Of a stretch of DNA of 54,419 bases, positions 16,296 through 54,419 are shown one piece after another. Position 1 is the stretch's first letter, and the number at the start of each line of letters is the position of its first letter. The notes beneath the pieces are model-generated. The model was not told the origin of the DNA. It worked only from the letters and a program-made list of their open reading frames with translations, and did no database searches. This DNA is from Candidatus Gemmiger faecavium (lineage in GTDB: Bacteria; Bacillota; Clostridia; Oscillospirales; Ruminococcaceae): assembly GCA_019114415.1 (NCBI GenBank), contig DXFO01000010.1:1-54419 (forward strand). The letters are read 5' to 3'. Position numbers and translations under genes: made by a program.

Positions 16296-16544
16296 CAACT
16301 GCAAAGCCAGTCTGCCCGCGGCGCAAAACAGCAGGACTGTTTTCGTGGTCCCTGAAACGTAAGGCGGCAAAATTCCGATGGCTCGGATATTACCGGTATT
16401 GCTTTTGGGGTACACGTGTTTTCTCCCGGGCGTTTCCGCTCGGGAACTGCTGTTGTGCACCGCAGGGTTGCGGCACATTCGCTGCACATCGTGCCGGCGT
16501 TTGGTCCGTCCGCCGCACGGTGTCTGCCTTTCCGGCAGTATACG
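16296..16544 (-). other. Long structured linker between B12 aptamer and terminator
   Basis: About 250 bases with no convincing reading frame. On the minus strand they hold a run of local hairpins: TGTGCCGCA/TGCGGTGCACA near 16450-16480, TCCCGAGCG/CGCCCGGGA closed by a GAAA loop near 16420-16440, and GGAC/GTCC near 16340. Most cobalamin switches place the platform much closer. See the separate finding. Confidence 0.55.
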
Positions 16545-16738
16545 CTGTAAGGCAGGTCTTCCGGCTTGGGCAGGTTTTGCTTCCCCGGCTTGTCACCTTC
16601 CCGTGTGTACCCACAGTGGCGGCGGCCTGCACGGCCGCCTGTAAGCCGGGGCCTGCCGTCACGGCGGCGGTCCCGCACAGGTCTTTCACCTGTTTCCCTA
16701 TTCTTCCGGCCGGCCTTGCGGCCCCGGACACCTTACAG
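16545..16738 (-). promoter_or_regulatory. Cobalamin (adenosylcobalamin) riboswitch aptamer
   Basis: On the minus strand P1 is exact: CTGTAAGG (16738-16731) with CCTTACAG (16552-16545). Core blocks follow the known consensus: AATAGGGAAACAGGTG, then GCGGGACCGCCG, GCCACTGTGG, GGGAAGGTG and the B12 box AGCCGGAAGACCTGCC. The peripheral stem between the second and third blocks is extended and GC-rich. Position before cbiMNQO fits feedback control of cobalt uptake by cobalamin. Confidence 0.95.
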
Positions 16739-16754
16739 TTGCTTTGTGATTATC

Positions 16755-53638: not shown

Positions 53639-53824
53639 ATGAACGACCATGATACCAACTCCCAGACTGCTTATACCGGCCCGCTCCCGGAGCCCGAGCC
53701 CCTCGGTGCACGGATCCGCAGTTTCCGGACGCAGCAGGGTCTGTCCCAGGAAGCACTTGCCGAAAAGCTCGATGTATCCCGGCAGGCAGTGGCCAAATGG
53801 GAGCGGGGAGTTTCCCAAACTTAA
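53639..53824 (+). pseudogene. XRE-family repressor gene, truncated after the HTH
   Basis: The frame starts at ATG 53639 and codes for 61 residues. LGARIRSFRTQQGLSQEALA and KLDVSRQAVAKWERGVSQ form a complete five-helix-type XRE start, with the recognition helix intact. In full-length relatives the chain continues (typically Pro-Asp and a long sensor or membrane domain), but here it stops after Ser-Gln-Thr with TAA. From this point the base composition becomes AT-rich and the next gene is a mobile-element type. This suggests that an insertion cut the gene near 53815-53825. A short functional repressor is possible but less likely. Confidence 0.65.
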
Positions 53825-53888: not shown

Positions 53889-54137
53889 ATGAAACGCCTT
53901 ATATCCTGCGAATATAACTTCGATAACTGCTGTGTTGAACTGAAATTTACAGATGGCAGCATGATTGCGATTGATACGATTGCCGTGGAGAATGAGGTTG
54001 CTGACAATATGTATCAAAGGTCGGAGCTTGATTATTTGATTTACAATGCACCGCTTGAATATGCCGATCTGATACTGAACGGTGATCCTGAAACCTATTT
54101 GAAAACCGTCACAGAGTATAAAACTTTAGATAACTGA
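53889..54137 (+). CDS. DUF6061 family protein of mobile elements
   Basis: An 82-residue protein, MKRLISCEYNFDNCCVELKF and onward, with an acidic second half (EYADLILNGDPETYLKTVTEY). I associate this sequence with DUF6061, a small family seen in conjugative elements of gut Clostridia; the function is unknown. GGAGG stands 8 bases before the ATG. Codon use is AT-richer than in the genes to the left. It is followed by a strong terminator, so it is probably a single-gene unit. It marks the left part of an element that continues past the window. Confidence 0.75.
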   Translation: MKRLISCEYNFDNCCVELKFTDGSMIAIDTIAVENEVADNMYQRSELDYLIYNAPLEYADLILNGDPETYLKTVTEYKTLDN

Positions 54138-54142
54138 TTGTT

Positions 54143-54180
54143 GTCCGTCCGTAAGAATCATCTTGCGGACGGATTTTTTT
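54143..54180 (+). terminator. Intrinsic terminator after the DUF6061 gene
   Basis: TCCGTCCGTAAGA and TCTTGCGGACGGA form a 13-base stem with one mismatch or wobble and an ATCA loop, followed by seven T. Confidence 0.92.
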
Positions 54181-54210: not shown

Positions 54211-54239
54211 TTGTAATTTCGACGATTTTGTGCTATAAT
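54211..54239 (+). promoter_or_regulatory. Strong promoter before the structured RNA
   Basis: TTGTAA (54211-54216) and TATAAT (54234-54239) have a 17-base spacer, with TGTGC before the -10 box (extended -10). The start is expected near 54246, exactly at the first base of the RNA's outer stem. Confidence 0.85.
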
Positions 54240-54245
54240 ATTTTA

Positions 54246-54419
54246 GCCAAACAAAGCTGAATAAGGAAAAGGACTACTTTTTACCAAGGGGATACTATAC
54301 CCTTTTTTGGTTATCATCTGATATGAGTTCGGTAAAAGCGCAACTCCACTCAGATGGTAACAAGGGTTTTCCTTTTCTGTTTGGGCTTTGTTTGGCGACA
54401 ATCGGAGGTTGCGTTTTTC
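54246..54419 (+). ncRNA. Highly structured RNA or long leader (runs to window end)
   Basis: The segment folds into nested helices. P1: GCCAAACAAAGC (54246-54257) with GCTTTGTTTGGC (54385-54396), 12 exact pairs. P2: AAGGAAAA (54263-54270) with TTTTCCTT (54367-54374). P3: ACCAAGGG with CCC and TTGGT (54283-54311). P4: GTTATCATCTGA (54310-54321) with TCAGATGGTAAC (54350-54361), one G-U pair, with an inner GAGTT/AACTC helix. After P1, GCGAC pairs with GTTGC, followed by TTTTT at the window end, a possible terminator. There is no open frame of note. It may be a stand-alone RNA or the attenuated leader of a gene to the right. Confidence 0.7.

Follow-up and report, generated by a model that had tools for sequence, protein, structure and literature searches.

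An apparently unnamed, widespread structured leader RNA of Clostridia that is most likely a transcription attenuator

Attenuators of the trp and his type are terminator/antiterminator switches in which four strands of a leader RNA compete with one another. The leader RNA family described here appears to follow the same alternating strand logic, with the pairings A:B, B:C, C:T2-5' and T2, but it differs from the trp and his attenuators in having no conserved leader peptide, in that its B:C pairing crosses the closing helix P1 as a pseudoknot, and in that one leader type precedes unrelated genes. PreQ1 and other pseudoknotted riboswitches that act on transcription likewise combine a pseudoknot, a terminator and a gene behind, whereas our family has no Rfam match above threshold and no common target pathway was seen. 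The 'mobile attenuators' of Naville and Gautheret (2010, PMC2965389), which that paper identifies as transposon terminators, resemble the family in that related attenuators stand before unrelated genes and spread by mobile elements, but the present family keeps promoter, switch strands and terminator together as one unit. The Rli51 leader of Listeria mpl, for which attenuation and also action in trans are reported (PMC11394854), is similarly a 5' leader with attenuation, although Rli51 serves one gene and the likeness is one of description. LoaP/dfn antitermination (PMC12691694) involves a leader RNA before an intrinsic terminator, but the RNA-bearing genomes of our order search contain no LoaP over the cut-off.

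The copy under study lies at the end of the window, by which we mean the whole 54,419-nucleotide stretch of DNA that was analysed. Together with its upstream neighbours it comprises the following features:

53639..53824, plus strand: XRE-type HTH gene cut by the element, with the junction at ~53808-53813 and the frame continuing to a stop in the element
53889..54137, plus strand: DUF6061 gene, the upstream neighbour (Pfam PF19537, E 1.2e-42)
~54143-54180: terminator-like hairpin behind the DUF6061 gene, recognised by eye
54211..54239, plus strand: sigma-A type promoter read from the sequence, with TTGTAA at 54211-54216, a 17-nt spacer and an extended -10 box TGcTATAAT ending at 54239
54246..54257, plus strand: 5' strand of P1, the 12-pair closing helix, at about +1 (MFE; family pairing 99.4%, with P1 included in the search model)
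54265..54273, plus strand: 5' strand of an inner helix, partner 54370-54378 (MFE)
54310..54321, plus strand: 5' strand of P3, 12 bp, partner 54350-54361 (MFE)
54325..54331, plus strand: strand A, the 5' side of a local hairpin pairing with B (MFE; per-copy A+B fold test)
54334..54347, plus strand: strand B, AAAAGCGCAACTCC, with A or C as potential partner (B:C covariation; per-copy fold tests)
54385..54396, plus strand: 3' strand of P1 (MFE; family covariation)
54403..54418, plus strand: strand C, CGGAGGTTGCGTTTTT, with B as potential partner (a pseudoknot across P1) and, in relatives, also the T2 5' arm

The last 180 bases of the window have an MFE of -68.3 kcal/mol (z -6.9), and none of 200 shuffles was equally stable, which bears out the view of the first-pass annotation that this RNA is too ordered for chance. 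The MFE fold contains the closing helix of 12 pairs that had been proposed, as well as inner helices and hairpins inside it, and the promoter, which had been called strong and placed directly upstream, ends 6 nt before P1. A small GCGAC/GTTGC hairpin that had been drawn at the window end proved to be a misreading: the MFE pairs other bases, the hairpin is 71.0% paired over 104 homologs with 259 of 500 shuffles as good, and the bases there belong to strand C, for which 54334-54347 inside P1 is a possible partner. The window ends inside strand C, before T2, and both T2 and the downstream gene of this copy lie beyond it. T2 is visible in relatives, for example L004, and a pattern search for T2 in the window's own genome found none.

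Neither the window nor 12 homologous loci gave a leader match to the whole Rfam 15 library at gathering score, and the 12 loci yielded only one tRNA; the first-pass annotation had likewise been unable to match the RNA to 6S, tmRNA, a known riboswitch or a group I/II intron. Rfam holds models for T-box, 6S, tmRNA and EAR, and none of these matched the window leader or the 12 homologous loci. When two leaders and four whole loci were scanned permissively, every match returned fell under the curated scores, and the best ones are either antisense to the leader or not tied to its direction. The speF leader (cut-off 37) was matched on the minus strand, with 19.1 bits (E 0.0045) in the window and 20.9 bits (E 0.049) in L132, and SorX (cut-off 46.6) was matched in L022 with 20.3 bits (E 0.013); we take the speF and SorX matches to be chance arising from the long hairpin. 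In the literature listings and main-text passages searched, no description of the family was recognised; an entry in a supplementary list, for example that of PMC8040213, may exist. Elsewhere in the window, at 16534-16750 on the minus strand, there is a cobalamin riboswitch (Rfam RF00174, 75.9 bits), the window's sole Rfam hit at gathering score, which is unrelated to the leader.

An exact 20-mer from the hairpin matches three metagenome-assembled genomes, and a model built from these three matches and the window (R1) matched 17 of 100 genomes, the window's own included. None of 34 other genomes of the same genus was matched by R1, which suggests that the window copy was acquired recently. A second model (R2) was made from 22 sequences and contained only the pairs of P1 and the terminator. 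With R2, the family was found in 102 of 295 genomes (35%) from 20 families in the order sample and in 97 of 391 genomes (25%) in the class sample; 94 of the latter lie outside the order, in 18 further families, which rules out an order-restricted family. A phylum-wide sample, scored under stricter filters with 6 candidates per genome, gave 1 of 398, namely the window's own genome. The order, class and phylum searches scored only 6-8 candidates per genome, and their copy numbers and presence counts are therefore lower bounds. The RNA belongs to a large family of Clostridia. Eight genomes picked as rich carry 10 (G307), 7 (G103), 8 (G303), 12 (G165), 9 (G204), 6 (G336), 10 (G241) and 15 (G196) copies. 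One close relative, L002, comes from a record of Oscillospiraceae, a family of the class Clostridia. Plasmids gave no match, and exact-pattern scans of viral contigs with three RNA patterns and one pattern for the DNA between DUF6061 and the leader gave 0 matches. Phage records yielded three partial DNA matches, two of them only 30 nt long and in Staphylococcus phages; the third, H1 from human faeces, turned out to match the family over its full length and is followed by a lipoprotein-like gene. Locus L005 (MT835845.1), deposited as 'Bacteriophage sp.' from human faeces, is a full-length family member followed by a lipoprotein-like gene and may be a bacterial fragment.

For comparative analysis, 106 distinct copies were read out of several hundred, comprising those with the best scores, those from rich genomes of the order, and named loci. 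The alignment (A5) holds 104 copies; L002 and L003, which are near-copies of the window, were omitted, repeat loci were entered once, and reverse-strand matches were kept out by the E-value limit. Over 104-106 copies the elements occur in one order: a promoter at fixed distance, P1, strand B inside P1, strand C behind P1, T2 and a gene start. Two subtypes can be distinguished: the end of C is reached after 159-191 nt in 42 long copies, the window's among them, and after 107-153 nt in 62 short ones.

The family is most likely a widespread structured leader RNA that acts as a transcription attenuator. The specific reading that we favour, with somewhat better than even confidence, is that of a cis-acting attenuator kept as a unit with its promoter and built from four competing strands. 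On this model RNA polymerase would start at P1, and strand B would first pair locally with A to form a hairpin. As C emerges, two outcomes would compete. In the ON state A:B would be retained, C would pair with the 5' arm and loop of T2 as an antiterminator, and the downstream gene would be transcribed. In the OFF state the B:C pseudoknot across P1 would serve as an anti-antiterminator, T2 would fold, and transcription would stop after ~145-230 nt. This ON/OFF direction follows from the strand logic. Some signal, whether a metabolite, a protein or polymerase speed, would bias A:B against B:C. Comparison among copies lends support to the predicted promoter geometry, P1, B:C, A:B, C:T2-5', T2 and gene position; we infer conditional read-through of T2, the choice between A:B and B:C as the decision, and a biasing factor. 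The suggestion of the first-pass annotation that the RNA attenuates the next gene fits the homologs, in which terminator and antiterminator compete and gene starts lie behind T2, with read-through being putatively conditional.

The distance from the end of the -10 box to P1 is 6 nt in 92 of 105 copies, in agreement with transcription beginning at about the first base of P1. Likewise, the promoter spacer is 17 nt, and TGn precedes the -10 box, in 91 of 105 copies each. A loose promoter score was passed by all 105 copies but also by 70% of shuffled upstream sequences; it is therefore the fixed positions, and not the score, that we count as promoter evidence. Over the 104 copies P1 reaches 99.4% pairing, each of its 10 pairs showing two-sided changes, and T2 is 96.5% paired with two-sided changes in 8 of 9 pairs, although both sets of figures lean on the search model, which contained P1 and T2. 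Compensatory changes in P1, another check proposed at the outset, are thus present. The B:C pairing was absent from the search model and is nevertheless 92.0% paired in A5, with two-sided changes in 9 of 15 pairs. Taken jointly, P1, B:C and T2 are 95.4% paired, compared with 83.5% in shuffles (0 of 500 as good), and sliding the partner columns by 1-3 lowers pairing to 39-58%. An AAT or ATA triplet follows P1 in 103 of 104 copies, a test too loose for a claim of a conserved motif. As for a conserved translated leader ORF, an SD-preceded ORF of at least 6 codons occurs in just 19 of 104 leaders, which rules out a leader-peptide attenuator; 11 of the 12 SD-preceded leader ORFs among those listed start with TTG or GTG.

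The competing pairings were also compared copy by copy. B pairs with its own C at -17.0 kcal/mol, compared with -12.2 for the C strands of other copies and -5.2 for shuffled C, and the own C beats the others in 101 of 103 copies (the row L092:1305-1448, which has no strand B, being left out). In 100 of 103 copies the native A+B fold is more stable than the average obtained with shuffled A. The A:B hairpin is strong in the short subtype (mean -13.2 kcal/mol) and weak in the long subtype (-6.3); in fixed columns its covariation is no greater than in shuffles, and its support is the per-copy fold test. C:T2-5' is 91.0% paired, compared with 87.1% in shuffles (0 of 500), and has 27 two-sided cells compared with 7.0 (0 of 500); just 4 of its 11 antiterminator pairs have two-sided changes, compared with 3.5 in shuffles (265 of 500 as good). 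The energy of C with the arm and loop of T2 is -11.4 kcal/mol for the own partner, -9.4 for others and -5.7 for shuffled C, with the own pairing beating other copies' arms in 74 of 99 copies and shuffled C in 98 of 99. Individual MFE folds show some of these pairings: L016 forms A:B and the antiterminator (C:T2-5'), L113 forms A:B and T2, and L004 forms a local hairpin and T2.

When the set was thinned below 70% identity, leaving 57 copies, B:C was better with the own strand in 56 of 57 and C:T2-5' in 46 of 57. For the short subtype the corresponding counts are 33 of 33 and 29 of 33. In the long subtype, which includes the window copy, B:C holds (21 of 24), but C:T2-5' shows no copy-specific matching (14 of 24, p 0.16). 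A mutually exclusive antiterminator is therefore found for the family and the short subtype, with the long-subtype match not being copy-specific, and in relatives an intrinsic terminator lies between promoter and gene.

T2 has a mean energy of -15.8 kcal/mol, compared with -11.7 for the antiterminator hairpin, and wins in 86 of 99 copies when the C+T2 region is folded alone; because of this, termination may be a nearly constant default. The same stability of T2, the promoter of their own at a fixed position, and tandem copies ~200-340 bp apart in three genomes (G196, G265 and G204) would suit trans-acting small RNAs, for which T2 is a plain terminator, the genes behind are reached by weak read-through, and B and C are seed strands. 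We consider this unlikely. Of 96 family terminator sites, 60 have an SD-preceded gene start no more than 60 nt behind them, compared with 8 of 158 other terminator-like sites at the same loci, and both this and the C:T2-5' alternative point to action in cis, although cis and trans roles can coexist.

A compact pseudoknotted RNA at the start of transcription, directly before a terminator, might also be expected of a processive antitermination RNA, whether of the put or EAR kind or one to which a NusG paralog binds, that would modify RNA polymerase so that it passes T2. Just 2 of the 295 order genomes (G337 and G123), however, encode a LoaP above the curated cut-off, and neither is among the 102 that bear the RNA, which excludes LoaP as the partner and a LoaP regulon; put, EAR and other NusG paralogs were judged by Rfam only. 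The C:T2-5' pairing offers a simpler route past T2, and we regard processive antitermination as improbable.

Under the favoured attenuator model, the genes behind T2 would be the targets. Of the 97 copies with 300 nt or more of downstream sequence, 88 have an SD-preceded ORF that begins within 250 nt. The SD rule selected 81 distinct genes whose starts lie within 120 nt; of these, 45 encode a signal-like N-terminus by a crude rule of our own, compared with 56 of 365 other ORFs, and 20 encode a lipobox, compared with 15 of 365. Pfam searches of 79 downstream proteins matched 51 families; of the 25 listed, LRR_5 occurs in 6 proteins and other LRR models in 1-5, and every other family (AMP-binding, Big_2, HTH_3, SLH, M23, collagen, LiaF, ABC and others) in 1-2. 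No shared function was seen by Pfam in these 79 proteins, nor was there a defence theme, with 36 PADLOC models matched and 1-2 proteins for each of the 25 listed. The downstream genes are mostly unrelated but enriched in signal-like N-termini. The L004 leader, which is 94.8% identical to that of the window over 174 nt and has dissimilar upstream DNA, is followed by genes for an M50 peptidase, two bPH_2 proteins, a LytTR regulator and a GHKL kinase. The proposal that a resistance or cargo gene follows the leader found no support: the window ends first, and the similar L004 leader precedes the M50 peptidase gene. Likewise, nothing supports a Tet-gene leader, the window's downstream gene lying outside and the homologs' genes being diverse.

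For 37 leader pairs that are at least 78% identical and have both genes known, only 3 have similar proteins and 2 have similar upstream DNA; the leaders of L017 and L053 are 93% identical, yet dissimilar proteins stand behind them. Near-identical leaders before dissimilar genes indicate that the module moves. The 3 of 37 figure would also suit a mobile terminator/promoter cassette without regulation, spread by recombination and giving constitutive low expression behind a leaky T2, and the 'mobile attenuators' paper describes attenuators of transposon origin (PMC2965389). Such a cassette would not explain why B:C shows two-sided changes, nor why C matches its partners copy by copy among copies less than 70% identical, and we give this explanation little credence. 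If the attenuator reading is true, the family would be a cis-regulatory RNA that is abundant in Clostridia, being present in 25% of genomes sampled from the class and 35% of those from the order. It would have a testable switch anatomy and target genes enriched for surface proteins, and would show a route by which a regulatory module can spread between genes. A more far-reaching proposal, which we find possible but doubtful, is that the RNA is a new class of global, signal-sensing switch that sets the surface and secreted repertoire of Clostridia; it would have a pseudoknotted, aptamer-like core and its own promoter, occur in up to 15 copies per genome and be moved on mobile elements, with unrelated genes joining the regulon by acquiring the leader.

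The DUF6061 gene and the leader are common to the window, L002 and L003. The junction with the XRE-type HTH gene falls in conserved codons (the KWERG region), the same codons in the window and L002. In L003 the DUF6061-leader unit directly follows a gene matching TRAM and tRNA_U5-meth_tr (rRNA-methyltransferase-like). From this arrangement we infer that in all three loci the leader rides near the end of a putative integrative element. The window copy is probably carried by a mobile element, with the gene under its control lying beyond the reach of the contig. An origin within a mobile element, as first suggested, is hence likely for the window copy by virtue of the XRE junction common to L002, but copies in the searched genomes are mostly spread over many contigs.

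The contig of the window stops inside strand C, that of L003 close by, and that of L002 at the T2 loop. In G204, six contig ends (C3, C8, C9, C16, C27 and C28; L144-L149) carry an identical 40-base foreign end sequence, which cuts four family leaders in or near the T2 loop; the other two sites are terminator-like by eye. This foreign sequence probably represents an insertion element with a preference for the loops of terminator hairpins. Insertion of that kind might account for contig ends like these, and for the window's end, in whose own genome no T2 was found by pattern, the explanation is conjectural. Leaders also occur in tandem, each ~145-170 nt long and ~200-340 bp apart, at G196:C48:10252-10815, G265:C7:140376-140860 and G204:C8:28837-29323. 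In G196 three leaders stand in a row before one gene, and in G265 there are two, each followed by a small frame that appears similar by eye.
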